Shown here: piece by piece, positions 2,839-36,189 of the stretch
Layout of the letters: every line of letters begins with the position of its first letter
How positions within the stretch are numbered: the stretch's first letter is position 1
Origin: Clusia tigrina
Lineage: Eukaryota; Arthropoda; Insecta; Diptera; Clusiidae
NCBI GenBank assembly: GCA_920105625.2
Contig: OV050030.1
Coordinates: 112,946,814 to 113,010,813 of the forward strand
Length of the DNA stretch: 64,000 nucleotides
Direction of reading: 5' to 3'
Made by a program: the position numbers and the translations under genes
The notes under the pieces: model-generated
Told to the model about the DNA's origin: nothing
What the model saw: the letters and a program-made list of their open reading frames with translations, nothing else
Databases searched by the model: none

Positions 2839-2841
2839 ACC

Positions 2842-3072
2842 TGTTGGACGCAATGTTTTAAGTTTAGGAAAAGAGAAACACAGTTATTGTTTTAGATTTA
2901 AAAAAAAACGAAATCAGCGTTAGATCAGTACTAATACAGTACACATTTTGCAAATTACAAAAACGTAAGAAAATGAGTGTAATGACAAACTTCAAAAAAA
3001 AACTAAAAACAGAAATGCCTGTGTATATGTATGTATGTTTATATGCATATGAAGATAACGCTTATTTCAACA
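2842..3072 (-). mobile_element. Copia LTR, left-arm copy without internal region
   Basis: Reverse complement of the 5' LTR at 35943-36173 (TGTTGAAATAAG...GCGTCCAACA). The Copia internal region that follows the right-arm copy is absent. Only GGT follows before unrelated sequence, so this is a breakpoint product and not a normal solo LTR. Confidence 0.9.
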
Positions 3073-3684
3073 ATTTCTACTTCTATTAAAAGTGTTACTT
3101 TGATTGTAGTGTCTATTAGTTCTATTCCCTATGTAGGAGTTGTTTCCTCTGTAGGAATTATTTCCTCGACTCCTATATTTTCTATTTATATAATTTATTT
3201 GTAGGGTGCTTGAACTATCTGCCCCTAACTCAATAAATTTAGTGATTGAGTCGCTAGTTGTGTTAAATTGACCTGCTAGTGTTAGCATTTTTACCTCTTC
3301 TGATCTCGAATTTTTTTATGGCCTTGACCACAGACTGCGCTGAGTATGTTTTTGCGAACTGAGGTGTCATGCCATCACCTATGTATGCACTTTCGAGCTG
3401 GTGTGCAAGTGATTCAATTTCCATTGCATAGTCTACATCACTTTTATTTTGCTGTTTGCTAATAGCCTAATTGTAATATTTAGTGAAGATTCGCTATTCA
3501 CACTTGAAATTAGTGTTTTTTATTGTTTCAATAGTGTGCTCATTTGTTAACAATCTAGCTGTTTGTGTGAGTTTTGTTTTAATTAGAGAGATTGCTAAAT
3601 CTTCATGATCTTCCTTGATTGAGTTTAGCACATCTAAAGCATTAACGAACTTACTTAAATTTTCAACAATTTTTATAAACAAAA
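3073..3684 (-). pseudogene. Gypsy-A gag fragment, left-arm copy
   Basis: Mirror of the gag piece at 35331-35942: a helical N-terminal part (ENLSKFVNALDVLNSIKEDH), a frameshift near 3485, a capsid-like middle and the start of an N/R/Y-rich nucleocapsid. It meets the oppositely oriented pol at about 3665-3688. Confidence 0.75.
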
Positions 3685-3685
3685 A

Positions 3686-6440
3686 TTGCATTTAAAAGAT
3701 GAAACACCAGTCTATATTAAAAATTACAGCTTACCTCATAATCATAAACCTGAAATTAATAAACACATAGAAAAACTAATTAAAGATAACATAATTGAAC
3801 CATCATTATCAGAATACAATATTCCAATCCTCTTGGTTCCAAAGAAATCCTCACCAAATTCTTCAGAAAAGAAATGGAGACTTGTGATAGATTATTGACA
3901 TGTTAACAAAAAACTTGCGTCAGACAAATACCCACTACCAAGAATCGATGACATTCTCGATCAACTGGGTCTAATACTTTTCCTGTCTAGATTTAATCTC
4001 GGGTTTTCACCAAATTGAACTTGAAGAAGTTTCAAGAAATATAACATCCTTCTCATCCGATCAAGGGTCATTTAGATTCAAACGATAACCATTTGGATTA
4101 AAAATTGCACCCCATCATTTCAACGAATGATGAACGTTACATTCTCTGGCCTCGGGCCAGACAAAACATTCATTTATATGGATGATATAATAGTAATAGG
4201 CTGTTCCGAAATTCACACGATCGAAAATCTAAAAACAGTTTTTGAAATCTGTAGGGAAACAAATCTCAAACTTCACCCAGACAAATGCAAATTTTTTGAC
4301 TCTCAAGTAACATTTTTAGGTCACAAGTGTACAGATAAAGGCATCTTACCAGATGAATCAAAGTTTGAAAAAATTCTTTCATATCCAAGACCAGCAAATG
4401 CTGACGAATGCAAAAGGTTCATAACATTCTTTAATTATTACAGACGATTCATACCAAATTTCTTTAATCATGCAACACACATCACTAAATTAACAAGAAA
4501 GAAAGCTCCTTTCATTTGGACAAGTGATTGTGAGAACGCATTTGCATATCTTAAAAATTCTTTACTAGCTCCCAAAATATTAAAGTATCCAGGTTTTGCA
4601 AACCTTTCTGTATAACCACTAGTACAAGCAAAATAGCTTGTGGTGCTGTATTAAGCCAAAATTACAACGGTACACAATTACCCATTGCTTTTGCCTCGAA
4701 AACATTTACAAAAGGGAATCTAATAAGTCAGTCATAGAACAAGAGCTGACGGCAATTCATTGGGCTATAAATTTTTTCAAACCATATATTTAATGTACCA
4801 AATTCCTCATAAAAAACGATCATAAACCGCTAACATACCTTTTTGCAATGAAAAATCCTTTCTCTAAAATAACAAGAATGAGGCTTGACCTCGAGGAATT
4901 CGATTTTGAAATAGAATATATCAAAGGTAAAGATAATTGCGGCGCAGATGCATTATTTCGCATTGATTTCGGGCATATCAAGCGACTCAAAGAAGAAAAC
5001 TCTGCTATCATTCAAATGATCACAAGGTCCAAGTCTAAAAACACACCCCCTAACACTAAAACCACACAAACCGAACAAGACGTAACACAACATGTGTATA
5101 ACACAATTACAAGTCAAGAAGTGAAAAAGTTACCTCGCCTTACATTTACAACCAAACGGTGCACCATAAATAAAAAATTTAAAGAATCCTCAAAATTATT
5201 ATTATTCCATGGAAAGAAAAAAATATTTAAACTGATACAAAAGATTTTGTTGCTCATGAGAAAATTTCGCTAGATCAATTACTTCTCAAACTTGAAAAAG
5301 CAGGTGGCAATAATAACTTTAAATGTATAAAGATCGCGATCAATGGCAATTTGTTTAAACATATTGATATAGAGGAATTTAAAAAGGTAGGTAACAAAAT
5401 CTTAAAAAAGGTAACAATTGGTATTACACCACAGATAACCAAAATCACTTCACCAACACAAAAACTAGAAATACTTCAAAAATATCTAGACGACCCTACA
5501 TTCGGAGGACACCCAGGTGTCACAAGATTGTAATAAAAAATTAGACGACAATACACATGGATAAACATTGCTTCAGAGGTGAAGTCTTATATTAAGAATT
5601 GGGAAAATTGTAAAAAATAATTTGGTAAATATAGCAAAGAACCCTTAGTCATAACGGGTACACCAGCAACCGGTTTTGACGTTGTTCAAATCGATACTAT
5701 AGACCTTCTTCCTAAATCGTTTAACGGGAATGAATACGCTCTCACAATAATTTGTGACTTATCTAAATTTCTAATAACAGTAGCCATACCAGCAAGGCAG
5801 CAAACATAGTAGCTATAGTAGAAAACTGCATCTTAGTTCACGGACCCATTGAACAGATACTAACGGACATGGGTACCGAATATAAAAACAAACTCTTTGA
5901 AGAAATATGTAAATTATTAAAAATAGATAATAGAACATCCACCCCATATCACCACCAAACATTAGGTACGATAGAACGTTCACACAGAACATTTAATGAA
6001 TACATAAGGTCATATATTTCGAAAAACAAGCTAGACTGGGACCATTGGCGCAAATATTTCACGTATTGTTACAATACAACACCTTCAACAACTCATGGCT
6101 ACACACCTTTTGAGCTAGTTTTCGGTAAAACTCTTGCACCCTATGACTTCATATTAAATGGTAAACTGGATCCAATTTATAATATAGATGACAGAATTTA
6201 AATTCAAATTACAAACAGCTCAGAAACGAGCAGCAGAATTACTAGAAAAGGCAAAAGGAAAGACAAAAGAAATTTATGATAAATGAGACAAGCCACAGAA
6301 TATGAATCCAGCCACAAGCTGGACAGCAGCTTTAAAGGTCCATATAAAGTCCTAGAAGTAGATAATTTTGGAAATTGCAAAATCGATATAAACTCAAAAG
6401 CAACAATTGTACATAAAAATAGACTCAAATTAGCATAATA
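3686..6440 (+). pseudogene. Gypsy-B pol (RT, RNase H, integrase), left-arm copy
   Basis: Decayed pol of a 17.6/297-type Gypsy element. In order: RT fingers (3686-3898, ending WRLVIDY then a stop), a frameshifted RT palm, YMDD within FIYMDDIIVIG (near 4180), RT thumb to 4615, an RNase H/connection region with KDNCGADAL (near 4935), integrase zinc-finger remains (near 5510-5620), integrase core Asp (QIDTID near 5690), second Asp (TDMGTEY near 5875) and Glu (IERSHRTFNEY near 5970). Stops and frameshifts separate all blocks. It lacks its own gag, protease and 5' LTR because it begins at an inversion junction. No env gene follows. Confidence 0.88.
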
Positions 6441-6836
6441 AATTTTTAAAAATATATTTGTCCTGCGCAGAACAATAATATAAGAACAATAGTATAAGAA
6501 CAATAGTATAAGAACAATATTATAAGAACAATAATATACAAATATAAGAATTTACAAATATACAAATATACAAAATATGACTTTATAAATCTACAATATG
6601 ACAATTTATAAAATTTGACAAATACATGGAAAAAATTTTTAATATATTAAGATATAAGCAAAAGAACATAAAAGTGTACCTAATGTATATAAAAACTTAC
6701 ATACATTTTCAAATGCGTAAACATAAGCACATAAAAAAATTAACAAAAAATAAAGAATACCTACTTCATTTTATTGTACGGCATGATCATCCAAATCATT
6801 TCAATTTGCATGATCACGCTTTCTAAACGGGAAAGG
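6441..6836 (+). other. Gypsy-B 3' noncoding region with minisatellite and purine tract
   Basis: No env-like frame is visible. At 6474-6536 a unit of about 15 bp (TATAAGAACAATA) is repeated about five times. The stretch AAACGGGAAAGG just before 6837 is the likely polypurine tract that primes plus-strand DNA synthesis. Confidence 0.65.
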
Positions 6837-7216
6837 TGTAATGACCGTCAGTAAAAAGTAGGTAATCGTCAAAACACAACTAAACCGTGACTGTGACACA
6901 GATGCCAATCGGTAATTCTAAACCTTTTGGCATAATTCGGAAATATGTGTGACAGATGTGAATTGGTAATTCCAAACCTTTTGACATAATTCGGAAGTAT
7001 GTCAATAACACATTGCTCACACATTGCTCACATATGCGGTTACGGTTTGGTTTCTTCTCAATAGTATATAGGTAGAACATTTTCATAGTTTAAGACAATT
7101 GCAATTAAGTGTTCAAACATTAAAGGACACGGATGTCGGACACTGGCTTCATGGATGCCGGTCCGATCTTATAAATAAATAAAATACTACAATAAAGTAT
7201 CCGTATTTTAATAACA
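6837..7216 (+). mobile_element. Gypsy-B 3' LTR, left-arm copy
   Basis: Starts TGTAATGACC directly after the purine tract and ends TTTAATAACA, giving TG...CA ends and a length of 380 bp. It contains a duplicated motif (GGTAATTC.AAACCTTTTG.CATAATTCGGAA), a TATA-like stretch near 7063 and AATAAA signals near 7172. The 5' LTR of this element is not in the window. The bases after 7216 are Jockey RT, its insertion target. Confidence 0.75.
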
Positions 7217-7505
7217 CTATATGGAGGTACGGATTACAAATTTGGGACGCTGCATGGAGATCTAACAAATATCTTATTACGACTACTATCAAAAATACTA
7301 CGCACAATCACCAATGATGTATGGTATATACCCAAAGACGCTATTCACAGTGATCTCAACATTGACACTGTACAAGGAATTACCCGCACATGTAGAATAA
7401 GGCATACACACGGACTATCAATTCACTCAAATCTTGAGATACGAAAGCTGCCAATGAAGGACAGCGAGCAACCGAGACTCCAAACCGACACTCCCTACAC
7501 CAGCG
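7217..7505 (+). pseudogene. Jockey-clade RT C-terminal fragment, left-arm copy
   Basis: Translation gives WRYGLQIWDAAWRSNKYL, then in a second frame WYIPKDAIHSDLNIDTV. This matches the conserved C-terminal block of Jockey-clade ORF2 proteins (tyrosine-glycine-x-Q-x-W, then WY..ND..H.DL). One frameshift lies near 7300. It is the sequence Gypsy-B inserted into; the rest of this Jockey copy on that side is lost. Confidence 0.75.
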
Positions 7506-7830
7506 GATTTAATAACTCGAAAATTTATTGAAATTGTAAATTATTGTTATAAAATCCGCAATCGTAAATGTTGTTTTATTGTTAACCAATACCCCCATAC
7601 TGTAAGATAATTTACTTAGTGTCATCTGACAGGTGTAAAATTGATAAGGGGAATACAAAAACAAATCTTCTCCTAACCATTCAAACTCGCTCTGGGGTAA
7701 AAATTCATAAAAACTTAATCGTAAATATTGATTTTTTTGTTAACTAACACTCCCATACTGTAAGACAATTTTCAGGTGTAAAATTTATAAGAGAAATAAA
7801 AAAAGACAAAGACAAAGAATTTCGCCAACT
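7506..7830. repeat. Diverged tandem repeat, two units, left arm
   Basis: Two related units, about 7555-7707 and 7716-7820, share AATCGTAAAT, TTGTTAAC, the block CCCATACTGTAAGA and a CAGGTGTAAAATT block. The second is shorter and diverged. No coding signal; it probably belongs to the 3' or 5' untranslated part of a Jockey-type element. Confidence 0.6.
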
Positions 7831-8021
7831 CTCTACTATTATCATTACCGTACTCATCTTTTTCAGAATTCTCCGAGAGGTTACGAAAGTTGATATTTAT
7901 AAACACAAAAATTGTTTCAATTTAAATGCGTTAAAATCAGCAGCGGCGGTAAATTTACTACATACAATACTAAAACACGTGTTTGGATTGCCCTTCCTCT
8001 ATATTGTATCTGGGGGCAGTA
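7831..8021 (-). other. Jockey EN continuation and LOA-1 target repeat, left arm
   Basis: Mirror of 30994-31184. Positions 8009-8021 are one copy of the 13 bp target duplication of LOA-1 (TACTGCCCCCAGA on the minus strand). The adjoining bases continue the interrupted Jockey endonuclease (PRYNIEEGQ) for about 50 bases before the reading fades. Confidence 0.55.
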
Positions 8022-8163
8022 AGTAGGTAGGTAGGTAAAGCGGCCACCCGAAAAGGGCGCACTTAGGCCAACATTGACCCTTTGTGATACCGCATGGGAC
8101 AGCAGGTCCCATCCCTTTCAAAGGTCCAGCCATTTGCAGCTTTTAATGAAGCTGTTGATGGAG

Positions 8164-11100
8164 CTAATCTTTTTTTTTTTGAGATATCTCACAAGGAGTC
8201 CAAAAAGTAGTGCGCCTCCTTCTGGACAAAGCTGGACACGTGCACAACAGGTGAGCAGTAGACTCTTCCTCCTCCTCATCCATGCAACTCCTGCAGAAGT
8301 CATTAGAGGCGATCCCCAGCCTACACCCGTGTGTGCCTAGAGTCCAGTGTACCGTTAAGACGCTAATCACGGGACCTATGCTTTGTCTATTTAGAGCAAG
8401 TAGGTCCTTAGAGCGCTTGACATTTATCTCTGGCCAGGTTTGTCTAGCTATTTTACATCCTGAAAGTTCAGACCAGCGCCCGCCCGCTGTTCCTAAGGAT
8501 ATTGTATTTACTAAGAGCTTACATGTGGCAATAGGAATACCGAATTGCGACCTATCTGGTTCCATCGGTATGGTAGTACCCTCACGGGCAAGTTCATCCG
8601 CCTTGCAGTTCCCTGGAATATCTCTGTGACCGGGAACCCAGCACAGATGCAGACGGGTCTGCTTAGCTATCTCGTCTAAAGATTTGCGGCAGCACTTGAC
8701 GGCTTTTGAGGTGATAATAACCGAATCCAGGGAGCGCAAAGCAGCTTGGCTGTCGGACAGAATGCAAATATCAAGTCCAGATATCTTCTTCTTCCTTAGC
8801 CAAGACAGTGCTGCCTCTATAGCCGCGACCTCTGCCTGAAAAACACTGCAGTGGTCGGGCATCCTAAAGGACATGTTAATATCCAAATCTTCTGAGAATA
8901 CACCACCTCCCACCCTACTCTGTAGTTTGGATCCATCTGTGTAGATGTGAACCCCTTCTACATGAGTGGGGATGCCATCCTTCCATTCATCCCTGGAGGG
9001 AATGGAGATCTTGCACATACCATTGAATGCGTACATTGGTGTGATGCAGTCGAAAGAGTCAGGAATACCCTCAAAATGTCTTAAATTGGACGCATGACCT
9101 ATATTCCTGGCATCCCATTGATGCGTAGCTTTTAGTCTGATAGCTGAGTTTGCAGCCATTTTTACGCCAAACAGCAGATTGAGCATAATATCCAATGCTG
9201 CCGTTGGAGTCGTTCTAATGGCACTACTTATGAATACCTCTGCCGTTCTTTGTACCTTTGTTATCAGCCTATTGTATGTGGATTTACTTAGGGCTGTCCA
9301 CCAAGCAAGCACCCCATAGAAAAGGACTGGTCGTACCACAGCTGTATATATCCAATAGGCTACCTTAGGCTGTAACCCCCATTTTTTGCCTATGACTCTT
9401 TTGCAAGAGTACAGAGCTACCTGAGCCTTCCTAATGCGCTCGCTTATATTGGCCTTCCAATTCAGCTTCCTATCTAGGATCACGCCCAGATATTTAGCCT
9501 CCTCGACAAGGTCAATATCTACACCCACTAGTTTTGGAGCAATAAATTGAGGAATTTTATACTTCCTAGTGAAGAGTACCAGCTTAGTCTTGGTCGGATT
9601 AACCCCCAACCCACAGTCAGTAGTCCATTTAGAGAGAATGTTCAGCACGTTTTGCATCAAGTCCCTCAAAGTAGATATATATTTACCCGAGATACTAATA
9701 GCAACATCATCCGCATACGCAACCACCTTGCACCCTTCCCTCTCCAGTCGAACAAGCAGCTGATTTACCGCAAGATTCCAGAGTAGGGGTGAAAGAACTC
9801 CACCTTGAGGTGTGCCTCTGCACACGGACTTCTTGGCCGACGCCGCCCCCAGCTGTGAATTGATTATCCTGCTACTAAGCATGTTTTCAATCCACCTGCT
9901 AATGGCGGGTTCCACCTCCAAGTCTCGCATCGCACCGATTATTGCGTCTGATTTGATATTGTTAAAAGCTCCCTCAATGTCCAGGAAAGCCACTAGGGAG
10001 AACTCCTTGTTGTGCAGGGAGCACTCAATCCTAGAGACTAAGGAGTGTAAAGCGGTCTCCACCGATTTATCCTTAACGTAGGCATGCTGAGAGACTGACA
10101 GCTTCTGTCTGTCTATAGTGAGCCTCAGATGAATATCTAACAACCTTTCCAGGATTTTTAGACAGAAGGAGGACAGACTAATGGGTCTTATGTCCCCTGG
10201 AGCTGTGTGCGAGCTTTTGCCGGCCTTGGGTATAAAAATTACCCTCACATGCTTCCATGAGTCTGGAATATACGCTAATTCAAGGCAACTATTATAGATC
10301 TTTAACAGCCACTCTATTATAAGATTCTCTGACTGCTGAATTTCAATTGGAGCTACACCATCTGGGCCAGATGCTTTAAATGGTTTGAAGCTATGGATAG
10401 CCCATTGCAATTTTGGCTTCGTGACTATGTCTGAGTTGACTTCAACAACATTCCCGCTGGGATTCGTTCTCCGCGGAATGGTACTCGAGCAACCAGGGAA
10501 GTGAGTCTCCAGAAGAAGCTCTAGAGTCTCATTACTATTAGAAGTCCGGGATCCATCCTCCCTCCTCAGGTAACCAGGTACCATTGGAGCAGTTGATAGG
10601 ATCTTCCTCAACCTGGACGTCTCAGAGATATCTTCTACGTCACCGCAAAAGTTCCTCCACGATTCTCTCTGTGCTTTCCTAAGCTTACTTTTGAAGGCTC
10701 TGAGTGCTGCCTTATATAAAGCCCAGTCTGCACTATCTCTAGACTTCTTTGCGCTGTTGAAAAGTCTCCTACAGTTTTGTCTGAGTCCCCTAATTTCCTC
10801 CCCCCACCATGTGGGTTTTTGTTTCCCCCTGGGTCTACTGAGGGGGCAAGAGACCAATAGAGCCTTATTAAGAGCAACCGTTAGAACCTCCACAGACCTA
10901 TCAATTTCGTCACACGTGCTTGTGCTTGTGGGGTTCTGAGGTAGTAGTCTAGCTACAGTCACCTTGTAGAGGTCCCAGTTTACTTTCCTGACATTTCTAA
11001 AAGCCTTAGGGCTAGGTAGACTATCTAGAAGATCAAACTGAATTAACCTATGATCCGAAAAGGAATGTTCCTCTAGAACGCTCCATTTTGAGATCCGATC

Positions 11101-11682
11101 AAAAATTGATTCGGAGGCAAGGGTTAAGTCTAGGACTTATTGCCTATTAGCAGTAATAAAAGTGGGTTCTGACCCCTTATTGCATACAGAAAGGTTAGTC
11201 ATTACAATATATTCATATAATGACTCACCTCGTTCATTGACATCCGTGCTTCCCCAGATATCATGGTGCGCATTGGCATCGCATCCAATAATAACAGCCA
11301 CCCGTTGAGCCTTTGCATCCACAACAAGCTTCTGTAGGTTGGCTTCTGGAAGGATCTCATGGTCATGCGCCATATAGGCCGAGACCAACCAGTACCGTCC
11401 CTTGCCAGTTTCCAGGCAGACGGCCGTTAAATCCTTGTTGCTGTAATTGGGGAGAATAAATGAGCTAGCATTATTCCTAATGAGGATACAAGACCTAGGT
11501 CTTCCTTCACTTACGGTATACAGCAAGCTATAATTTTCAGTCCTGAGACCACATACCAAGTCCCCGTGTGTCCAGGGTTCGTGGATCAGGACAATGTCTA
11601 CTCCGCCTTTTGCAAGACGGAGCTGAAGGCTGGCAGACGCCGCCTTCGATTGATGGAGGTTAATCTGCACTATTCGTAGCAT
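8164..11682 (-). pseudogene. LOA-1 ORF2 (EN-RT-RNase H), left-arm copy
   Basis: Same protein as 27321-30851. It differs by a four-codon deletion near 9165 (the right arm has PVRL plus changes there). The single in-frame stop near 11136, in the endonuclease, is shared with the right arm, so it predates the duplication or was copied with it. Confidence 0.9.
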
Positions 11683-12028
11683 CTCTGCTACTTGTAGCGC
11701 TGGTCACCTCCACCACCGTGACATCAGCCTCAGACTCCGAGTCTGACTCCAGAAGGACTTCCTCCTCACTGAGTGTGGTTGTCCCTAGGAGACTCTCCAA
11801 ACCCCCCACAGTTGACATAGAGTCACTGCGTTTCGGGTATGTGGCGGAGTCCTCAGCAGTTACCCCTGAGGGATTCAATACCGCTTGATCCGTGTAAGAC
11901 GGTTGCTCGTCCTTTTTGTAGACCTTAAGGCTTGTGGATGAGAAGCCATAGCCCACGACCCAATTGGATTTCGCTAGAGTAGCCAGAGATTCGGCGTTCA
12001 CCACAAGGGTTATTGACCGGTAATCCCC
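11660..12028 (-). pseudogene. LOA-1 ORF1 C-terminal part, left-arm copy
   Basis: Mirror of 26975-27343: an acidic Ser/Glu-rich C-terminus overlapping the ORF2 start by 23 bases. The N-terminal part is missing through 5' truncation. Confidence 0.7.
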
Positions 12029-12344
12029 TCTGGGGGCAGTAGATCGTTGAAATTATTAGTCCACTTACATATTCTTCGAGTATAATAGTTGTTGCTTGTA
12101 TATAATCAGTGCCGAAATTTTGTATTATAATTGTTATGCCACCACGAGGTTTGTCACTAGAGTATTTGGTATCATAGATGGTATATCCATCTATATCGAA
12201 GCTATTTTTCTGAGTGAGATGGATTTCTGGAATAAGTATGAGATCAATAGAGTTCGAATTTAGAAAATGATGGAGCTCCAACTTTTGCTGGGTTACACTG
12301 CTAGTATTCCACAATGAAATTTTTATGGTGTTTTTGGTTTTCAC
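12029..12344 (-). pseudogene. Jockey endonuclease N-terminus, left-arm copy
   Basis: Mirror of 26659-26974. It reads IKISLWNTSS, a Jockey-clade apurinic-type endonuclease start, with IPEIHLT containing the metal-binding Glu. It is cut by LOA-1 at 12029. One difference from the right arm, at 12136, changes Thr to Ile. Confidence 0.8.
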
Positions 12345-12482
12345 AATATATATTGTAATATCATGTTTGTTGAAGGATTTCTTTTGAGTATATTAGATAT
12401 TAGCATAAGAATTTACCCACGTTCGGGTCGCTTATGGGAATAATACTGATTTTTGTAGGAGCTACTTTTTAATTCATCTTTG

Positions 12483-12701
12483 CTGTATTTGTTGGATATT
12501 TATATTCACAGGGTAGCGTCGATAGTTGACTGTATAGCTTTTTAAGCAATTACTGCATTTCTTAACATGTGTGTCTTCTTTTGTCTTTTGGCAGTTTTGA
12601 GATGAGTGCAGCTCACCACAAATAACATACACAGTCGGTAGTATGCAACATACTTTAGTGTGACTAAATTCTTGGGAATTCTGCCACTGAACTGGGGCAT
12701 A
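12483..12701 (-). pseudogene. Jockey ORF1 zinc-knuckle fragment, left-arm copy
   Basis: Mirror of 26302-26520; see that entry for residues. It lies upstream of the endonuclease in the order expected for ORF1 then ORF2. Confidence 0.7.
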
Positions 12702-13482
12702 CTGTTTTCGGTGTTAGTCGACTGTTATTTTTTATTAAAAAGATAGCGAAGGTCATAAATATGATGTGTTTCACCTTTCTTGAGCTTCGTGTTTGTCTGG
12801 TTGTAGTTCAATTCAGAAGAATGATTGTGAAAAATTATTTTTCTTGTGTAAATTGTACACGGATTTTATATGAAATTCTACTGGCGACAGTGCTTCCTGA
12901 AGTTAATTGGATACTACATAATATTCAATTACCGTTAAAATCATTGACAGGCCTTTACTACTTTTAAGTTGGTAAGTATATTATTATTTGGTTTTATGAT
13001 GTATTCCACAATTTTGGGGAGATTTTAGCAAAGTGAGATGCGCGTTAATAGCGCGTTGCAGTTTGCATATGACTGTTGGCTTTGTTTACAGTTGTTAGAG
13101 CGCTAATTGTCTATAGTTTCCCATGAAGGCAGGAGGAGCGTGTGTTCTAATAATAATATTCACAAAAATACATAGTAAGCGAAACTTAGTATGAAGTACT
13201 TATCTTAATGTGCACCAAAAAATAATTTATTTCAGCACATTATAAATTATTTACATTTTATAATCATGAAAAGTTTTTTTTTTACAATGCCATCAGTAAA
13301 ATTGTGTCTTGTAGTTATTGTGGAAAATTTCAAAAAAACCACATAATTTAATTTACTAAAACTAACATGTTTTCTTTAGACATCATTTATTTTATCCGCC
13401 AGTTGCAACAGGTAAGTTTAAATTTTCCACAGATGTCGATTTATGCTAGCTGATTACATAGTATTGCAAATTTGTATCTTTT
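12702..13482. other. Unassigned, left arm
   Basis: AT-rich sequence without a coding signal I can support. A 68-codon plus-strand frame at 12761-12967 has no recognisable features. Confidence 0.4.
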
Positions 13483-13798
13483 CATCAGTCGATATATCTT
13501 CCGTAAATGAAACGTACAATAAAGGCCCAAGAATACTCCTGGGGATATACCAGATGCTGTAAACGTTTGACAAGGACTAGCACTAGTTGCCTTTAACTAT
13601 AAATGTTCTGTCACGAATATTCGATTCTAGGCTCACCAATAAATTCAGCATGAAGCATTTCTTTCGACATATTCATCATGACAAACCTTATCGAATGCCT
13701 GCGGTACGTCTAAGAATATACTCAAAGGCTTTGCGAATTTCTTTTGTGATTCGGTGTACTGCCTCAATTATTCCATGTTTTCTTTGAAAGAAAAAATT
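13483..13798 (-). pseudogene. Jockey RT fragment, left-arm copy
   Basis: Mirror of 25205-25520: HGIIEAVHRITKEIRKAFE, the Jockey RT block before the FLDV catalytic motif, then decayed traces of the GVPQGSVLGPLLY region. Confidence 0.7.
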
Positions 13799-18000: not shown

Positions 18001-18025
18001 GAAATCTAAAGTGTGAGGTCGCGTT

Positions 18026-20977: not shown

Positions 20978-21002
20978 AACGCGACCTCACACTTTAGATT
21001 TC

Positions 21003-25520: not shown

Positions 25521-26301
25521 AAAAGATACAAATTTGCAATACTATGTAATCAGCTAGCATAAATCGACATCTGTGGAAAATTTAAACTTACCTGTTGCAA
25601 CTGGCGGATAAAATAAATGATGTCTAAAGAAAACATGTTAGTTTTAGTAAATTAAATTATGTGGTTTTTTTGAAATTTTCCACAATAACTACAAGACACA
25701 ATTTTACTGATGGCATTGTAAAAAAAAAACTTTTCATGATTATAAAATGTAAATAATTTATAATGTGCTGAAATAAATTATTTTTTGGTGCACATTAAGA
25801 TAAGTACTTCATACTAAGTTTCGCTTACTATGTATTTTTGTGAATATTATTATTAGAACACACGCTCCTCCTGCCTTCATGGGAAACTATAGACAATTAG
25901 CGCTCTAACAACTGTAAACAAAGCCAACAGTGATATGCAAACTGCAACGCGCTATTAACGCGCATCTCACTTTGCTAAAATCTCCCCAAAATTGTGGAAT
26001 ACATCATAAAACCAAATAATAATATACTTACCAACTTAAAAGTAGTAAAGGCCTGTCAATGATTTTAACGGTAATTGAATATTATGTAGTATCCAATTAA
26101 CTTCAGGAAGCACTGTCGCCAGTAGAATTTCATATAAAATCCGTGTACAATTTACACAAGAAAAATAATTTTTCACAATCATTCTTCTGAATTGAACTAC
26201 AACCAGACAAACACGAAGCTCAAGAAAGGTGAAACACATCATATTTATGACCTTCGCTATCTTTTTAATAAAAAATAACAGTCGACTAACACCGAAAACA
26301 G
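25521..26301. other. Unassigned, right arm
   Basis: Mirror of 12702-13482. AT-rich, no supported gene. A difference between the arms lies at 25932 (paired with 13071). Confidence 0.4.
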
Positions 26302-26520
26302 TATGCCCCAGTTCAGTGGCAGAATTCCCAAGAATTTAGTCACACTAAAGTATGTTGCATACTACCGACTGTGTATGTTATTTGTGGTGAGCTGCACTCA
26401 TCTCAAAACTGCCAAAAGACAAAAGAAGACACACATGTTAAGAAATGCAGTAATTGCTTAAAAAGCTATACAGTCAACTATCGACGCTACCCTGTGAATA
26501 TAAATATCCAACAAATACAG
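26302..26520 (+). pseudogene. Jockey ORF1 zinc-knuckle fragment, right-arm copy
   Basis: Reads QEFSHTKVCCILPTVYVICG, then ELHSSQNCQK and KKCSNCLKSYTVNYRRYPV. This is the C-terminal region of Jockey-clade ORF1, where three retroviral-type CCHC knuckles end in the C..C...H(S)...NYRGCPV form. Here the first Cys pair and the GCPV Cys are mutated, and a TGA closes the frame. ORF1 is an RNA-binding chaperone in live elements. The N-terminal part is absent. Confidence 0.72.
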
Positions 26521-26658
26521 CAAAGATGAATTAAAAAGTAGCTCCTACAAAAATCAGTATTATTCCCATAAGCGACCCGAACGTGGGTAAATTCTTATGC
26601 TAATATCTAATATACTCAAAAGAAATCCTTCAACAAACATGATATTACAATATATATT

Positions 26659-26974
26659 GTGAAAACCAAAAACACCATAAAAATTTCATTGTGGAATACT
26701 AGCAGTGTAACCCAGCAAAAGTTGGAGCTCCATCATTTTCTAAATTCGAACTCTATTGATCTCATACTTATTCCAGAAATCCATCTCACTCAGAAAAATA
26801 GCTTCGATATAGATGGATATACCATCTATGATACCAAATACTCTAGTGACAAACCTCGTGGTGGCACAACAATTATAATACAAAATTTCGGCACTGATTA
26901 TATACAAGCAACAACTATTATACTCGAAGAATATGTAAGTGGACTAATAATTTCAACGATCTACTGCCCCCAGA
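26659..26974 (+). pseudogene. Jockey endonuclease N-terminus, right-arm copy
   Basis: Starts KTKNTIKISLWNTSSVTQQK and continues with LILIPEIHLTQ (metal-binding Glu) and GYTIYDTKYS...RGGTTIII. These are the hallmark blocks of the Jockey-clade AP-type endonuclease that nicks target DNA. It is interrupted at YCPQ by LOA-1. The downstream continuation (PRYNIEEGQ) is on the other side of LOA-1 at about 31000-31060. It follows its ORF1 knuckles at 26302-26520 at the expected spacing. Confidence 0.8.
26962..26974. repeat. LOA-1 target site duplication, 5' copy
   Basis: TACTGCCCCCAGA here and again at 30994-31006 directly after the 3' tail. The 13 bp length is typical of target-primed reverse transcription. 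Confidence 0.92.
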
Positions 26975-27343
26975 GGGGATTACCGGTCAATAACCCTTGT
27001 GGTGAACGCCGAATCTCTGGCTACTCTAGCGAAATCCAATTGGGTCGTGGGCTATGGCTTCTCATCCACAAGCCTTAAGGTCTACAAAAAGGACGAGCAA
27101 CCGTCTTACACGGATCAAGCGGTATTGAATCCCTCAGGGGTAACTGCTGAGGACTCCGCCACATACCCGAAACGCAGTGACTCTATGTCAACTGTGGGGG
27201 GTTTGGAGAGTCTCCTAGGGACAACCACACTCAGTGAGGAGGAAGTCCTTCTGGAGTCAGACTCGGAGTCTGAGGCTGATGTCACGGTGGTGGAGGTGAC
27301 CAGCGCTACAAGTAGCAGAGATGCTACGAATAGTGCAGATTAA
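26975..27343 (+). pseudogene. LOA-1 ORF1 C-terminal part
   Basis: From 26999 the frame is open and ends at TAA 27343. The visible part (ESLATLAKSNWVVGYGFSST) ends in a very acidic Ser/Glu tail (EEEVLLESDSESEADV). Zinc knuckles, usual in ORF1 of this group, would lie in the missing N-terminal part or are absent. The overlap with the ORF2 start (ATG 27321) implies coupled or re-initiated translation. Confidence 0.7.
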
Positions 27344-30300
27344 CCTCCATCAATCGAAGGCGGCGTCTGCCAGCCTTCAGCTCCGTCTTGCAAAAGGCGG
27401 AGTAGACATTGTCCTGATCCACGAACCCTGGACACACGGGGACTTGGTATGTGGTCTCAGGACTGAAAATTATAGCTTGCTGTATACCGTAAGTGAAGGA
27501 AGACCTAGGTCTTGTATCCTCATTAGGAATAATGCTAGCTCATTTATTCTCCCCAATTACAGCAACAAGGATTTAACGGCCGTCTGCCTGGAAACTGGCA
27601 AGGGACGGTACTGGTTGGTCTCGGCCTATATGGCGCATGACCATGAGATCCTTCCAGAAGCCAACCTACAGAAGCTTGTTGTGGATGCAAAGGCTCAACG
27701 GGTGGCTGTTATTATTGGATGCGATGCCAATGCGCACCATGATATCTGGGGAAGCACGGATGTCAATGAACGAGGTGAGTCATTATATGAATATATTGTA
27801 ATGACTAACCTTTCTGTATGCAATAAGGGGTCAGAACCCACTTTTATTACTGCTAATAGGCAATAAGTCCTAGACTTAACCCTTGCCTCCGAATCAATTT
27901 TTGATCGGATCTCAAAATGGAGCGTTCTAGAGGAACATTCCTTTTCGGATCATAGGTTAATTCAGTTTGATCTTCTAGATAGTCTACCTAGCCCTAAGGC
28001 TTTTAGAAATGTCAGGAAAGTAAACTGGGACCTCTACAAGGTGACTGTAGCTAGACTACTACCTCAGAACCCCACAAGCACAAGCACGTGTGACGAAATT
28101 GATAGGTCTGTGGAGGTTCTAACGGTTGCTCTTAATAAGGCTCTATTGGTCTCTTGCCCCCTCAGTAGACCCAGGGGGAAACAAAAACCCACATGGTGGG
28201 GGGAGGAAATTAGGGGACTCAGACAAAACTGTAGGAGACTTTTCAACAGCGCAAAGAAGTCTAGAGATAGTGCAGACTGGGCTTTATATAAGGCAGCACT
28301 CAGAGCCTTCAAAAGTAAGCTTAGGAAAGCACAGAGAGAATCGTGGAGGAACTTTTGCGGTGACGTAGAAGATATCTCTGAGACGTCCAGGTTGAGGAAG
28401 ATCCTATCAACTGCTCCAATGGTACCTGGTTACCTGAGGAGGGAGGATGGATCCCGGACTTCTAATAGTAATGAGACTCTAGAGCTTCTTCTGGAGACTC
28501 ACTTCCCTGGTTGCTCGAGTACCATTCCGCGGAGAACGAATCCCAGCGGGAATGTTGTTGAAGTCAACTCAGACATAGTCACGAAGCCAAAATTGCAATG
28601 GGCTATCCATAGCTTCAAACCATTTAAAGCATCTGGCCCAGATGGTGTAGCTCCAATTGAAATTCAGCAGTCAGAGAATCTTATAATAGAGTGGCTGTTA
28701 AAGATCTATAATAGTTGCCTTGAATTAGCGTATATTCCAGACTCATGGAAGCATGTGAGGGTAATTTTTATACCCAAGGCCGGCAAAAGCTCGCACACAG
28801 CTCCAGGGGACATAAGACCCATTAGTCTGTCCTCCTTCTGTCTAAAAATCCTGGAAAGGTTGTTAGATATTCATCTGAGGCTCACTATAGACAGACAGAA
28901 GCTGTCAGTCTCTCAGCATGCCTACGTTAAGGATAAATCGGTGGAGACCGCTTTACACTCCTTAGTCTCTAGGATTGAGTGCTCCCTGCACAACAAGGAG
29001 TTCTCCCTAGTGGCTTTCCTGGACATTGAGGGAGCTTTTAACAATATCAAATCAGACGCAATAATCGGTGCGATGCGAGACTTGGAGGTGGAACCCGCCA
29101 TTAGCAGGTGGATTGAAAACATGCTTAGTAGCAGGATAATCAATTCACAGCTGGGGGCGGCGTCGGCCAAGAAGTCCGTGTGCAGAGGCACACCTCAAGG
29201 TGGAGTTCTTTCACCCCTACTCTGGAATCTTGCGGTAAATCAGCTGCTTGTTCGACTGGAGAGGGAAGGGTGCAAGGTGGTTGCGTATGCGGATGATGTT
29301 GCTATTAGTATCTCGGGTAAATATATATCTACTTTGAGGGACTTGATGCAAAACGTGCTGAACATTCTCTCTAAATGGACTACTGACTGTGGGTTGGGGG
29401 TTAATCCGACCAAGACTAAGCTGGTACTCTTCACTAGGAAGTATAAAATTCCTCAATTTATTGCTCCAAAACTAGTGGGTGTAGATATTGACCTTGTCGA
29501 GGAGGCTAAATATCTGGGCGTGATCCTAGATAGGAAGCTGAATTGGAAGGCCAATATAAGCGAGCGCATTAGGAAGGCTCAGGTAGCTCTGTACTCTTGC
29601 AAAAGAGTCATAGGCAAAAAATGGGGGTTACAGCCTAAGGTAGCCTATTGGATATATACAGCTGTGGTACGACCAGTCCTTTTCTATGGGGTGCTTGCTT
29701 GGTGGACAGCCCTAAGTAAATCCACATACAATAGGCTGATAACAAAGGTACAAAGAACGGCAGAGGTATTCATAAGTAGTGCCATTAGAACGACTCCAAC
29801 GGCAGCATTGGATATTATGCTCAATCTGCTGCCTGTTAGGCTTTTTGGCGAAAAAATGGCTGCAAACTCAGCTATCAGACTAAAAGCTACGCATCAATGG
29901 GATGCCAGGAATATAGGTCATGCGTCCAATTTAAGACATTTTGAGGGTATTCCTGACTCTTTCGACTGCATCACACCAATGTACGCATTCAATGGTATGT
30001 GCAAGATCTCCATTCCCTCCAGGGATGAATGGAAGGATGGCATCCCCACTCATGTAGAAGGGGTTCACATCTACACAGATGGATCCAAACTACAGAGTAG
30101 GGTGGGAGGTGGTGTATTCTCAGAAGATTTGGATATTAACATGTCCTTTAGGATGCCCGACCACTGCAGTGTTTTTCAGGCAGAGGTCGCGGCTATAGAG
30201 GCAGCACTGTCTTGGCTAAGGAAGAAGAAGATATCTGGACTTGATATTTGCATTCTGTCCGACAGCCAAGCTGCTTTGCGCTCCCTGGATTCGGTTATTA

Positions 30301-30851
30301 TCACCTCAAAAGCCGTCAAGTGCTGCCGCAAATCTTTAGACGAGATAGCTAAGCAGACCCGTCTGCATCTGTGCTGGGTTCCCGGTCACAGAGATATTCC
30401 AGGGAACTGCAAGGCGGATGAACTTGCCCGTGAGGGTACTACCATACCGATGGAACCAGATAGGTCGCAATTCGGTATTCCTATTGCCACATGTAAGCTC
30501 TTAGTAAATACAATATCCTTAGGAACAGCGGGCGGGCGCTGGTCTGAACTTTCAGGATGTAAAATAGCTAGACAAACCTGGCCAGAGATAAATGTCAAGC
30601 GCTCTAAGGACCTACTTGCTCTAAATAGACAAAGCATAGGTCCCGTGATTAGCGTCTTAACGGTACACTGGACTCTAGGCACACACGGGTGTAGGCTGGG
30701 GATCGCCTCTAATGACTTCTGCAGGAGTTGCATGGATGAGGAGGAGGAAGAGTCTACTGCTCACCTGTTGTGCACGTGTCCAGCTTTGTCCAGAAGGAGG
30801 CGCACTACTTTTTGGACTCCTTGTGAGATATCTCAAAAAAAAAAAGATTAG
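27321..30851 (+). pseudogene. LOA-1 ORF2: endonuclease-RT-RNase H, one premature stop
   Basis: Starts MLRIVQINLHQSKAASA, the LOA-clade endonuclease opening; Glu in LIHEPWTHG (near 27410); IIGCDANAHHDIWGS, the Asp-Asn pair (near 27715); then TAA at 27864-27866 inside NRQ*VLDLTLAS; SDHRLIQFD catalytic SDH (near 27950). RT: FKASGPDGVAP (28625), FLDIEGAFNN (29020), GTPQGGVLSPLLWN (29185), YADD (29286-29297), LGVILDRKLNWK (29515). RNase H: HIYTDGSK (30065), FQAEVAAIEAA (30175), ILSDSQAALRS (30250), WVPGHRDIPGNCKADELA (30375). A C-terminal Cys/His cluster (CRSCMDEEEEESTAHLLC) follows near 30720. All catalytic residues are present; the one stop disables it. It performs target nicking, reverse transcription and RNA removal. 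Confidence 0.93.
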
Positions 30852-30993
30852 CTCCATCAACAGCTTCATTAAAAGCTGCAAATGGCTGGACCTTTGAAAG
30901 GGATGGGACCTGCTGTCCCATGCGGTATCACAAAGGGTCAATGTTGGCCTAAGTGCGCCCTTTTCGGGTGGCCGCTTTACCTACCTACCTACT

Positions 30994-31184
30994 TACTGCC
31001 CCCAGATACAATATAGAGGAAGGGCAATCCAAACACGTGTTTTAGTATTGTATGTAGTAAATTTACCGCCGCTGCTGATTTTAACGCATTTAAATTGAAA
31101 CAATTTTTGTGTTTATAAATATCAACTTTCGTAACCTCTCGGAGAATTCTGAAAAAGATGAGTACGGTAATGATAATAGTAGAG
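30994..31184 (+). other. LOA-1 3' target repeat and Jockey EN continuation, right arm
   Basis: Positions 30994-31006 repeat TACTGCCCCCAGA. Immediately after, PRYNIEEGQ continues the Jockey endonuclease that was cut at 26974. The coding trace fades by about 31065; the rest is featureless. Confidence 0.65.
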
Positions 31185-31509
31185 AGTTGGCGAAATTCTT
31201 TGTCTTTGTCTTTTTTTATTTCTCTTATAAATTTTACACCTGAAAATTGTCTTACAGTATGGGAGTGTTAGTTAACAAAAAAATCAATATTTACGATTAA
31301 GTTTTTATGAATTTTTACCCCAGAGCGAGTTTGAATGGTTAGGAGAAGATTTGTTTTTGTATTCCCCTTATCAATTTTACACCTGTCAGATGACACTAAG
31401 TAAATTATCTTACAGTATGGGGGTATTGGTTAACAATAAAACAACATTTACGATTGCGGATTTTATAACAATAATTTACAATTTCAATAAATTTTCGAGT
31501 TATTAAATC
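31185..31509. repeat. Diverged tandem repeat, right arm
   Basis: Mirror of 7506-7830. Confidence 0.6.
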
Positions 31510-31798
31510 CGCTGGTGTAGGGAGTGTCGGTTTGGAGTCTCGGTTGCTCGCTGTCCTTCATTGGCAGCTTTCGTATCTCAAGATTTGAGTGAATTGATAG
31601 TCCGTGTGTATGCCTTATTCTACATGTGCGGGTAATTCCTTGTACAGTGTCAATGTTGAGATCACTGTGAATAGCGTCTTTGGGTATATACCATACATCA
31701 TTGGTGATTGTGCGTAGTATTTTTGATAGTAGTCGTAATAAGATATTTGTTAGATCTCCATGCAGCGTCCCAAATTTGTAATCCGTACCTCCATATAG
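31510..31798 (-). pseudogene. Jockey-clade RT C-terminal fragment, right-arm copy
   Basis: Mirror of 7217-7505. Confidence 0.75.
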
Positions 31799-32178
31799 TG
31801 TTATTAAAATACGGATACTTTATTGTAGTATTTTATTTATTTATAAGATCGGACCGGCATCCATGAAGCCAGTGTCCGACATCCGTGTCCTTTAATGTTT
31901 GAACACTTAATTGCAATTGTCTTAAACTATGAAAATGTTCTACCTATATACTATTGAGAAGAAACCAAACCGTAACCGCATATGTGAGCAATGTGTGAGC
32001 AATGTGTTATTGACATACTTCCGAATTATGTCAAAAGGTTTGGAATTACCAATTCACATCTGTCACACATATTTCCGAATTATGCCAAAAGGTTTAGAAT
32101 TACCGATTGGCATCTGTGTCACAGTCACGGTTTAGTTGTGTTTTGACGATTACCTACTTTTTACTGACGGTCATTACA
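31799..32178 (-). mobile_element. Gypsy-B 3' LTR, right-arm copy
   Basis: Mirror of 6837-7216; 380 bp, TG...CA ends in element orientation. Confidence 0.75.
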
Positions 32179-32574
32179 CCTTTCCCGTTTAGAAAGCGTG
32201 ATCATGCAAATTGAAATGATTTGGATGATCATGCCGTACAATAAAATGAAGTAGGTATTCTTTATTTTTTGTTAATTTTTTTATGTGCTTATGTTTACGC
32301 ATTTGAAAATGTATGTAAGTTTTTATATACATTAGGTACACTTTTATGTTCTTTTGCTTATATCTTAATATATTAAAAATTTTGTCCATGTATTTGTCAA
32401 ATTTTATAAATTGTCATATTGTAGATTTATAAAGTCATATTTTGTATATTTGTATATTTGTAAATTCTTATATTTGTATATTATTGTTCTTATAATATTG
32501 TTCTTATACTATTGTTCTTATACTATTGTTCTTATATTATTGTTCTGCGCAGGACAAATATATTTTTAAAAATT
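32179..32574 (-). other. Gypsy-B 3' noncoding region, right-arm copy
   Basis: Mirror of 6441-6836, with the approximately 15 bp minisatellite at 32479-32541. An arm difference lies at 32384 (paired with 6631). Confidence 0.6.
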
Positions 32575-35329
32575 TATTATGCTAATTTGAGTCTATTTTT
32601 ATGTACAATTGTTGCTTTTGAGTTTATATCGATTTTGCAATTTCCAAAATTATCTACTTCTAGGACTTTATATGGACCTTTAAAGCTGCTGTCCAGCTTG
32701 TGGCTGGATTCATATTCTGTGGCTTGTCTCATTTATCATAAATTTCTTTTGTCTTTCCTTTTGCCTTTTCTAGTAATTCTGCTGCTCGTTTCTGAGCTGT
32801 TTGTAATTTGAATTTAAATTCTGTCATCTATATTATAAATTGGATCCAGTTTACCATTTAATATGAAGTCATAGGGTGCAAGAGTTTTACCGAAAACTAG
32901 CTCAAAAGGTGTGTAGCCATGAGTTGTTGAAGGTGTTGTATTGTAACAATACGTGAAATATTTGCGCCAATGGTCCCAGTCTAGCTTGTTTTTCGAAATA
33001 TATGACCTTATGTATTCATTAAATGTTCTGTGTGAACGTTCTATCGTACCTAATGTTTGGTGGTGATATGGGGTGGATGTTCTATTATCTATTTTTAATA
33101 ATTTACATATTTCTTCAAAGAGTTTGTTTTTATATTCGGTACCCATGTCCGTTAGTATCTGTTCAATGGGTCCGTGAACTAAGATGCAGTTTTCTACTAT
33201 AGCTACTATGTTTGCTGCCTTGCTGGTATGGCTACTGTTATTAGAAATTTAGATAAGTCACAAATTATTGTGAGAGCGTATTCATTCCCGTTAAACGATT
33301 TAGGAAGAAGGTCTATAGTATCGATTTGAACAACGTCAAAACCGGTTGCTGGTGTACCCGTTATGACTAAGGGTTCTTTGCTATATTTACCAAATTATTT
33401 TTTACAATTTTCCCAATTCTTAATATAAGACTTCACCTCTGAAGCAATGTTTATCCATGTGTATTGTCGTCTAATTTTTTATTACAATCTTGTGACACCT
33501 GGGTGTCCTCCGAATGTAGGGTCGTCTAGATATTTTTGAAGTATTTCTAGTTTTTGTGTTGGTGAAGTGATTTTGGTTATCTGTGGTGTAATACCAATTG
33601 TTACCTTTTTTAAGATTTTGTTACCTACCTTTTTAAATTCCTCTATATCAATATGTTTAAACAAATTGCCATTGATCGCGATCTTTATACATTTAAAGTT
33701 ATTATTGCCACCTGCTTTTTCAAGTTTGAGAAGTAATTGATCTAGCGAAATTTTCTCATGAGCAACAAAATCTTTTGTATCAGTTTAAATATTTTTTTCT
33801 TTCCATGGAATAATAATAATTTTGAGGATTCTTTAAATTTTTTATTTATGGTGCACCGTTTGGTTGTAAATGTAAGGCGAGGTAACTTTTTCACTTCTTG
33901 ACTTGTAATTGTGTTATACACATGTTGTGTTACGTCTTGTTCGGTTTGTGTGGTTTTAGTGTTAGGGGGTGTGTTTTTAGACTTGGACCTTGTGATCATT
34001 TGAATGATAGCAGAGTTTTCTTCTTTGAGTCGCTTGATATGCCCGAAATCAATGCGAAATAATGCATCTGCGCCGCAATTATCTTTACCTTTGATATATT
34101 CTATTTCAAAATCGAATTCCTCGAGGTCAAGCCTCATTCTTGTTATTTTAGAGAAAGGATTTTTCATTGCAAAAAGGTATGTTAGCGGTTTATGATCGTT
34201 TTTTATGAGGAATTTGGTACATTAAATATATGGTTTGAAAAAATGTATAGCCCAATGAATTGCCGTCAGCTCTTGTTCTATGACTGACTTATTAGATTCC
34301 CTTTTGTAAATGTTTTCGAGGCAAAAGCAATGGGTAATTGTGTACCGTTGTAATTTTGGCTTAATACAGCACCACAAGCTATTTTGCTTGTACTAGTGGT
34401 TATACAGAAAGGTTTGCAAAACCTGGATACTTTAATATTTTGGGAGCTAGTAAAGAATTTTTAAGATATGCAAATGCGTTCTCACAATCACTTGTCCAAA
34501 TGAAAGGAGCTTTCTTTCTTGTTAATTTAGTGATGTGTGTTGCATGATTAAAGAAATTTGGTATGAATCGTCTGTAATAATTAAAGAATGTTATGAACCT
34601 TTTGCATTCGTCAGCATTTGCTGGTCTTGGATATGAAAGAATTTTTTCAAACTTTGATTCATCTGGTAAGATGCCTTTATCTGTACACTTGTGACCTAAA
34701 AATGTTACTTGAGAGTCAAAAAATTTGCATTTGTCTGGGTGAAGTTTGAGATTTGTTTCCCTACAGATTTCAAAAACTGTTTTTAGATTTTCGATCGTGT
34801 GAATTTCGGAACAGCCTATTACTATTATATCATCCATATAAATGAATGTTTTGTCTGGCCCGAGGCCAGAGAATGTAACGTTCATCATTCGTTGAAATGA
34901 TGGGGTGCAATTTTTAATCCAAATGGTTATCGTTTGAATCTAAATGACCCTTGATCGGATGAGAAGGATGTTATATTTCTTGAAACTTCTTCAAGTTCAA
35001 TTTGGTGAAAACCCGAGATTAAATCTAGACAGGAAAAGTATTAGACCCAGTTGATCGAGAATGTCATCGATTCTTGGTAGTGGGTATTTGTCTGACGCAA
35101 GTTTTTTGTTAACATGTCAATAATCTATCACAAGTCTCCATTTCTTTTCTGAAGAATTTGGTGAGGATTTCTTTGGAACCAAGAGGATTGGAATATTGTA
35201 TTCTGATAATGATGGTTCAATTATGTTATCTTTAATTAGTTTTTCTATGTGTTTATTAATTTCAGGTTTATGATTATGAGGTAAGCTGTAATTTTTAATA
35301 TAGACTGGTGTTTCATCTTTTAAATGCAA
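32575..35329 (-). pseudogene. Gypsy-B pol (RT, RNase H, integrase), right-arm copy
   Basis: Mirror of 3686-6440, same stops and frameshifts. It abuts Gypsy-A gag in the opposite orientation at about 35327-35350. Confidence 0.88.
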
Positions 35330-35350
35330 TTTTTGTTTATAAAAATTGTT
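35327..35350. other. Inversion junction between Gypsy-B pol and Gypsy-A gag
   Basis: Minus-strand pol changes to plus-strand gag at GCAATTTTTGTTTATAAAAA, itself a short imperfect palindrome (CAATTTTT/AAAAATTG). The uninterrupted pol order is seen at 47600-47620, which shows that the join is not native. The mirror junction lies at 3665-3688. Confidence 0.8.
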
Positions 35351-35942
35351 GAAAATTTAAGTAAGTTCGTTAATGCTTTAGATGTGCTAAACTCAATCAA
35401 GGAAGATCATGAAGATTTAGCAATCTCTCTAATTAAAACAAAACTCACACAAACAGCTAGATTGTTAACAAATGAGCACACTATTGAAACAATAAAAAAC
35501 ACTAATTTCAAGTGTGAATAGCGAATCTTCACTAAATATTACAATTAGGCTATTAGCAAACAGCAAAATAAAAGTGATGTAGACTATGCAATGGAAATTG
35601 AATCACTTGCACACCAGCTCGAAAGTGCATACATAGGTGATGGCATGACACCTCAGTTCGCAAAAACATACTCAGCGCAGTCTGTGGTCAAGGCCATAAA
35701 AAAATTCGAGATCAGAAGAGGTAAAAATGCTAACACTAGCAGGTCAATTTAACACAACTAGCGACTCAATCACTAAATTTATTGAGTTAGGGGCAGATAG
35801 TTCAAGCACCCTACAAATAAATTATATAAATAGAAAATATAGGAGTCGAGGAAATAATTCCTACAGAGGAAACAACTCCTACATAGGGAATAGAACTAAT
35901 AGACACTACAATCAAAGTAACACTTTTAATAGAAGTAGAAAT
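35331..35942 (+). pseudogene. Gypsy-A gag, first part
   Basis: Frames: 35324-35521 (ENLSKFVNALDVLNSIKEDH, helical capsid-like), a frameshift, DYAMEIESLAHQLESAY (about 35580), then 35727-35942, which is rich in N, R, G and Y (YRSRGNNSYRGNNSYIGNRT), the basic nucleocapsid-like end typical of 17.6/297-type gag. The N-terminus and 5' LTR are replaced by the inversion junction. Copia interrupts it at 35942; the same N/R-rich tract resumes at 40424. Confidence 0.78.
35938..35942. repeat. Copia target site duplication, 5' copy
   Basis: GAAAT here and at 40419-40423 directly after the 3' LTR; 5 bp is the normal length for Copia. Confidence 0.92.
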
Positions 35943-36173
35943 TGTTGAAATAAGCGTTATCTTCATATGCATATAAACATACATACATATACACAGGCAT
36001 TTCTGTTTTTAGTTTTTTTTTGAAGTTTGTCATTACACTCATTTTCTTACGTTTTTGTAATTTGCAAAATGTGTACTGTATTAGTACTGATCTAACGCTG
36101 ATTTCGTTTTTTTTTAAATCTAAAACAATAACTGTGTTTCTCTTTTCCTAAACTTAAAACATTGCGTCCAACA
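35943..36173 (+). repeat. Copia 5' LTR
   Basis: TGTTGAAATAAG...GCGTCCAACA. It lacks about 16 bases (TAAATAAACATTAAAT region) present in the 3' LTR and differs at several single bases, so the insertion is not brand new. Confidence 0.93.
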
Positions 36174-36189
36174 GGTTATGGGCCCAGTG
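36174..36189 (+). promoter_or_regulatory. Copia primer binding site, internal tRNA-iMet type
   Basis: GGTTATGGGCCCAGTG follows the LTR directly. From recall, Drosophila Copia uses nearly the same sequence, pairing with an internal (anticodon-stem) part of initiator tRNA-Met, a half-tRNA primer, instead of the 3' end. Confidence 0.8.

Follow-up and report, generated by a model that had tools for sequence, protein, structure and literature searches.

A probable fold-back inverted duplication, presumably stabilised by one-sided loss, in the genome of Clusia tigrina

Introduction

A stretch of 64,000 nucleotides of the Clusia tigrina genome (assembly GCA_920105625.2, contig OV050030.1, positions 112946814-113010813; below, the window) carries two 16.1-kb arms in inverted orientation around a 1.08-kb spacer, which raises the question of how so large and so nearly perfect a palindrome arose and how it has lasted. 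The sequence examined around the locus comprised the window and 40 kb fetched around it (104 kb in total), and the assembly that was searched held 1,214,047,780 bases in 666 contigs. With a probability of roughly 65%, we consider the locus to be a fold-back inverted duplication of about 17.1 kb that was asymmetrically stabilised. Fold-back inverted duplication with asymmetric stabilisation is a known class of rearrangement.

Results

The alignment of the window against itself (BLASTN) returned the two arms and the spacer at exactly the coordinates given in the original prediction, which had been made from the letters of the window. The pair sums it had reported, 39015 for the outer and 39003 for the inner part of the arms, were likewise correct.

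2839..18959, minus strand: left arm, inverted derived copy of the right arm (self-BLASTN and arm alignment)
18960..20043, no strand: spacer, 1084 bp (self-BLASTN)
20044..36176, plus strand: right arm, source copy (self-BLASTN and arm alignment)

The arms (16,121 bp and 16,133 bp) were 99.888% identical over 16,133 columns, and such a match over 16 kb cannot have arisen by chance. Long, near-identical inverted arms of this kind are a mark of fold-back inverted duplications. Where the original prediction had noticed one 12-bp indel and isolated single bases, the MAFFT alignment of the arms gave 18 differing columns, made up of six substitutions (left/right positions 4770/34245, 6631/32384, 9164/29851, 12136/26867, 13071/25932 and 16121/22882) and a single 12-bp gap (left 9171, right 29843-29832). 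Five of the six substitutions were transversions, a number too small for interpretation. Single-base indels between the arms were absent from this alignment, and 36 of the 37 left-arm homopolymers of at least 6 bp were the same in both arms, the remaining one being broken by a substitution.

These data bear on the possibility that the repeat is an artefact of assembly or library preparation, produced either by fold-back chimerism or by a head-to-head fusion of two haplotypes of one locus at an AT tract. AT tracts are self-complementary and can fold, and both fold-back and amplification chimeras are known (PMC6218980, PMC12870357). The lack of single-base indels and the nearly unchanged homopolymers speak against such an origin, as do a private change in each arm and a microhomology joint that leads into a truncated foreign transposon at the left outer edge (both described below). 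The inner end of the left arm (18000-19000), searched against the assembly, had only two places at 100% among the best 40 of 554 candidates; these were the two arms, both on the same contig, and this too is evidence against an artefact. The other places among those 40 were matches of 73-90% to repeats that the searched segment contains, and a 40-bp match to the locus's own central palindrome. A mis-join of two haplotypes is further weakened because no mirrored flanks were present within the 104 kb. The comparison of 22.8 kb on the left with 47.8 kb on the right yielded one match of at least 100 bp, which was direct (173 bp at 78%), and no inverted match longer than 37 bp, a length reached only with the low-complexity filter off. 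On this evidence, an artefact appears improbable.

The outer edges of the arms revealed the direction of copying. The relevant features are given below (LTR, long terminal repeat; TSD, target-site duplication).

35938..40423, plus strand: full-length copia-type element that extends across the right outer edge (repeats, LTRs, Pfam domains)
35938-35942 and 40419-40423, plus strand: TSDs (GAAAT) of this element
35943-36173 and 40172-40418, plus strand: its 5' and 3' LTRs, respectively
36317-39552, plus strand: its gag, integrase and RVT_2 domains (Pfam)
2842..3072, minus strand: copia-type LTR, truncated copy, bordered by GAAAT on the inner side and by foreign sequence on the outer side
1..2838, minus strand: left flank, LTR and 5' region of a family that we take to be gypsy-like, and a fragment of another repeat family at 2764-2838
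2839..2842, no strand: outer junction of the derived copy, with the microhomology CCT

The right-hand element was designated copia-type on the basis of the Pfam domains Retrotran_gag_2 and RVT_2. Directly after its 5' LTR, at position 36174, starts the stretch GGTTATGGGCCC, which is presumably the primer-binding stretch, and the right arm ends at 36176, three bases beyond the LTR. In the left arm, just the LTR of this element is present, and the GAAAT duplication is absent from its outer side. A solo LTR formed by recombination between the two LTRs was ruled out, as GAAAT would then remain on both sides, and the TSD-flanked element crossing the right edge likewise ruled out the left arm as the original. 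The left flank itself is repetitive: region 2450-2759 matched the other places listed for it at 97-98%, and the 2764-2838 family was found at 39 other places among the best 40 of 606 candidates. This family is cut off at the left junction, and it continues past the junction point in all six other copies inspected (one at position -5825 relative to the window, five from elsewhere in the assembly). Because the flank family is truncated and the TSD-flanked element is intact, the left junction marks a break in each of the two partners, and the ancestral arrangement is that of the right side. One side is thus ancestral while the other is joined to foreign sequence, in line with a fold-back inverted duplication, and the direction of duplication, as read from these sequences, is from right to left.

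The motif CCT is common to both partners at the left joint. The preceding base is G in the six other copies of the flank family and A at this locus, so that the microhomology is 3 bp and would amount to 4 bp (ACCT) only if the flank copy had once carried an A. Since the arm stops so close to the LTR, joining of the LTR end by integrase was also considered; the CCT shared with the flank family is explanation enough. The outer breakpoint (2842, 36173) lies within 3 bp of the LTR end, and the microhomology accounts for the joint, not for its location.

A second symmetry was found at the left edge of the spacer. A perfect 124-bp palindrome, consisting of 31 bp, the tract (AT)31 and the same 31 bp reversed, starts one nucleotide from the inner edge of the left arm.

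18961..19084, no strand: perfect palindrome, the probable original centre of the giant palindrome (self-BLASTN, palindrome check)
18992..19053, no strand: (AT)31 tract (sequence)
18960..18961, no strand: putative scar of an asymmetric loss, about 958 bp missing, with 0-1 bp of homology or 1 bp inserted
19053..19813, plus strand: old transposon fragment that breaks off at the AT tract; the block 19085-20043 has no left partner (genome matches)

The 124-bp palindrome has a pair sum of 38045, which is 958 less than the 39003 of the inner arms. Were the giant palindrome originally centred on the AT tract, its left half would thus be short by about 958 bp, exactly at the 18959/18961 joint. When read from the middle of the AT tract, the right half (19023-36176; 17,154 bp) has its inverted partners in unbroken order, except for a single contiguous stretch, 959 bp long (19085-20043), and for the 12-bp indel. 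A self-complementary sequence thus sits at the putative centre of symmetry, as in fold-back inverted duplications, and the centre of the present arms lies 479 bp away. With random placement, the palindrome would start or end within 1 nt of either arm edge at 4 of the 961 positions available in the spacer, a value that assumes a uniform model and was estimated after the position had been seen. The original prediction, which was right about the inverted repeat, had overlooked both this palindrome and the LTR ends at the outer edges.

The 124-bp palindrome does not derive from the ends of a transposon. The spacer region 19053-19813 is an old repeated element with longer genomic matches at 70-75% (best 40 of 576 candidates). 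Eleven genomic copies, the best of those listed besides this locus, were inspected and were 71-74% identical to the fragment; in all eleven the element runs on beyond the palindrome half, with a different sequence that is similar among the copies. Because of this continuation, the palindrome half belongs to the interior of the transposon and is no terminal repeat, and a miniature inverted-repeat transposable element (MITE) or fold-back transposon as the source of the palindrome was ruled out. An Rfam scan of the whole window returned no hits.

The inner junction also permits a one-step, large-loop reading, in which a resected end annealed about 1.1 kb further inward, the spacer is the loop and the 124-bp AT palindrome existed beforehand. 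The length of the spacer is within the range of a human series (766-70,466 bp, median 3,428; PMC3907307), and a small palindrome at the spacer end, being a site prone to breakage, could explain the position of the break. The 21 junctions described there comprised 13 with 2-8 bp of homology, three with about 300 bp of repeat homology and five with insertions, and events of the large-loop type are accordingly expected to show at least 2 bp, repeat homology or an insertion. The inner junction of our locus has 0-1 bp of homology and perhaps 1 bp inserted, with no clear inverted microhomology. On the large-loop reading, moreover, the 124-bp palindrome, not being the end of a transposon, must have arisen separately, and we consider this reading unlikely.

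Among 42 AT runs of at least 12 bp in 54 loci (213,768 bases; a non-random and partly overlapping set), four had a perfect inverted flank of at least 6 bp directly at the run; three of the four were the present locus, seen three times, and the fourth was an array of short repeats to the right of the window. A second AT run within the window, (TA)39 at 62259-62336, had no inverted flanks of note, with 1 bp exact, or 8 matches over 11 bp when mismatches were allowed.

The age of the duplication was approached through the copia-type element and the differences between the arms. The two LTRs of the element were 88.7% identical, compared with six substitutions in 16.1 kb between the arms, and the element was therefore inserted long before the arms separated. 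The Drosophila mutation rate is about 3e-9 per site per generation, at which six substitutions over 16,121 sites would correspond to about 60,000 generations, absent conversion. Two of the differences, the substitution at 4770 and the 12-bp indel, were polarised. A third copy of the region around the former (54424-55062, 99%) agrees with the left arm, so the 4770/34245 change probably arose on the right arm. The 12-bp gap falls in open reading frames (ORFs) of the long interspersed nuclear element (LINE) type.

8164..11703, minus strand: LINE-type ORFs (endonuclease, RVT_1, RNase H) with the 12-bp gap at 9171, which keeps the frame and is taken to be a deletion
27300..30851, plus strand: right-arm LINE-type ORFs, in which the 12-bp gap is absent

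The protein of a LINE relative in the right flank (n = 1, 37% identity) aligned without a gap to the right-arm protein (60.1 bits) and only with gaps to the left-arm protein (51.6 bits), and the 12-bp change is thus probably a deletion on the left arm. With one probable change on the right arm and one on the left, both arms would have changed after the duplication.

To characterise the content of the arms, all 26 ORFs of at least 90 amino acids (stop to stop) in the left arm were scanned with Pfam-A at the curated cut-offs. Four of them contained hits above the cut-off, all to domains of the retroelement type, and the others had weak hits or none.

8164-11136: left-arm ORF with RVT_1 and RNase_H (Pfam)
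11137-11703: left-arm ORF with endonuclease (Pfam)
14259-14867: left-arm ORF with RVT_1 (Pfam)
4076-4615: left-arm ORF with RVT_1, also matching the viral polymerase model RdRP_1 (Pfam)

No host genes were recognised in these 26 ORFs. The structure had been predicted not to be a fold-back transposon, and the present data bear this out: inverted termini made of element ends with a target duplication, which would define a fold-back transposon or MITE, were not found at the locus, with its patchwork arms, its outer edge at an LTR end and its internal palindrome half. We also considered an old palindrome of the sex-chromosome kind, in which conversion between the arms would maintain their similarity. 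The very high identity of the arms agrees with it, and sex-chromosome palindromes similarly have arms more than 99% alike around a spacer. Gene conversion is nevertheless needless here, as six substitutions in 16.1 kb fit a young duplication; unlike the sex-chromosome palindromes, the arms have no recognised host gene, and the domains above the cut-off were limited to those of polymerases and retroelements. This explanation seems very improbable.

About 31 kb beyond the right arm edge, at positions 66818-68358 relative to the window (L053:2818-4358), lies the array mentioned above. It contains five 115-bp units, 100% identical and strictly alternating in orientation (+ - + - +), between AT-rich, mostly (AT)n tracts, and its arrangement suggests that fold-back at AT tracts is perhaps no single accident in this region. 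In a wider reading, (AT)n tracts would be a recurring engine of inverted duplication that gave both the 17-kb palindrome and the 115-bp array, and palindromes made of transposons could yield hairpin RNA and, through it, small-RNA silencing. An analogous role of hairpin RNA has been proposed for Mu killer in maize (PMC3440606). If the wider reading holds, the long hairpin RNA of the palindromes could feed the silencing of the very elements inside them; we regard the idea as speculative and rather unlikely.

Several further repeats were present in the neighbourhood. Part of the arm's gypsy-like region (3639-5420) recurs in the right flank (47570-55240). The right-flank copy is split by a 6.3-kb insert (48134-54423), whose 10-bp direct repeat (ATAATAGTAA) and AAT-rich 3' end are features expected of a LINE insertion. 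Conversely, the arm carries a 412-bp insert that is absent from the right-flank copy. A transposase fragment at 46396-47079 on the minus strand (Pfam Transposase_1 and DDE_3) is, we presume, of the mariner type. To the left of the window, from -19999 to -5897 (L051/L052), the sequence is repeated in tandem and in direct orientation, offset by 6.3-6.7 kb and with an identity of 99.5-99.7%, up to the end of the fetched sequence.

Discussion

The sequence itself shows both symmetries, one large gap between them, the direction in which copying ran, the microhomology at the outer joint and a private change in each arm, and these can be accommodated in the following history. The (AT)31 tract, being self-complementary, would let one strand fold back on itself where a fork had stalled or a break had been resected. 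The sequence to the right would then be copied again in reverse, up to the 5' LTR of the old copia-type element, where a microhomology of 3-4 bp (CCT) would connect the new strand with another transposon, today's left flank. The product would be a near-perfect palindrome centred on (AT)31. About 958 bp would have been lost from its left half, with the 124-bp centre spared, to give the 1.08-kb spacer, either later or by a second template switch within the same event. With a spacer of this length, the structure would be less easily extruded or broken, and the palindrome probably owes its survival to the one-sided loss. The recent segmental inverted duplication that had been one of the options of the original prediction is thus upheld, now with a direction, a probable centre and two junctions.

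Several points weigh against this history. Neither an undeleted palindrome nor an unduplicated allele was seen, the order of events is derived from one sequence, and the structure itself is known from the assembled sequence. The homology at the inner scar amounts to just 0-1 bp. The polarity of each of the two arm changes was read from one comparison sequence. Finally, the 124-bp palindrome could have arisen independently, although its position argues otherwise and makes this unlikely.

The fold-back history has close counterparts among known systems. According to Brewer et al. 2024 (PMC10766186), palindromic junctions become more widely spaced and more stable once sequence is deleted from one arm; approximately 5-10% of the yeast cases had widened from 40-80 bp to 1.1-34.9 kb, and a limited human survey included no case with unambiguously intact palindromic arms. 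The palindromic junctions described there resemble our locus in that a near-perfect palindrome was begun at a short self-complementary site, one-sided loss widened the spacing (here to about 1 kb) and the second junction has a few base pairs of microhomology. Unlike those yeast and patient rearrangements, the present locus has one inverted extra copy, with no inverted triplication in the 104 kb. Origin-dependent inverted-repeat amplification (ODIRA), which gives three copies with the middle one inverted and the flanks intact, does not match the two copies and the truncated left-flank family observed within the 104 kb, unless a third copy was lost later.

The disomic-spacer fold-backs of Hermetz et al. 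2014 (PMC3907307) share with our locus the inverted arms, a single-copy spacer (about 1 kb here) and microhomology at the far junction; in contrast, our locus has no clear microhomology at the inner junction and an extra, smaller palindrome at the spacer edge. In yeast fold-back inversions (PMC7467729, PMC10622511), a short inverted sequence likewise primes copy-back, followed by secondary joining, but these were recovered from laboratory strains as translocations or dicentric-derived chromosomes, whereas the present structure is interstitial. Further background on fold-backs and palindrome fragility is given in PMC10164571 and PMC7999016. Within the literature searched, by title and the start of the abstract, no natural locus that preserves both the centre and the scar was found.

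Large palindromes usually lose the traces of their origin. Here the putative start site, the direction of copying, the terminal joint and the one-sided loss are all readable in one sequence, and the idea that a central asymmetry can rescue a newborn palindrome thereby becomes testable in a natural locus and its relatives.

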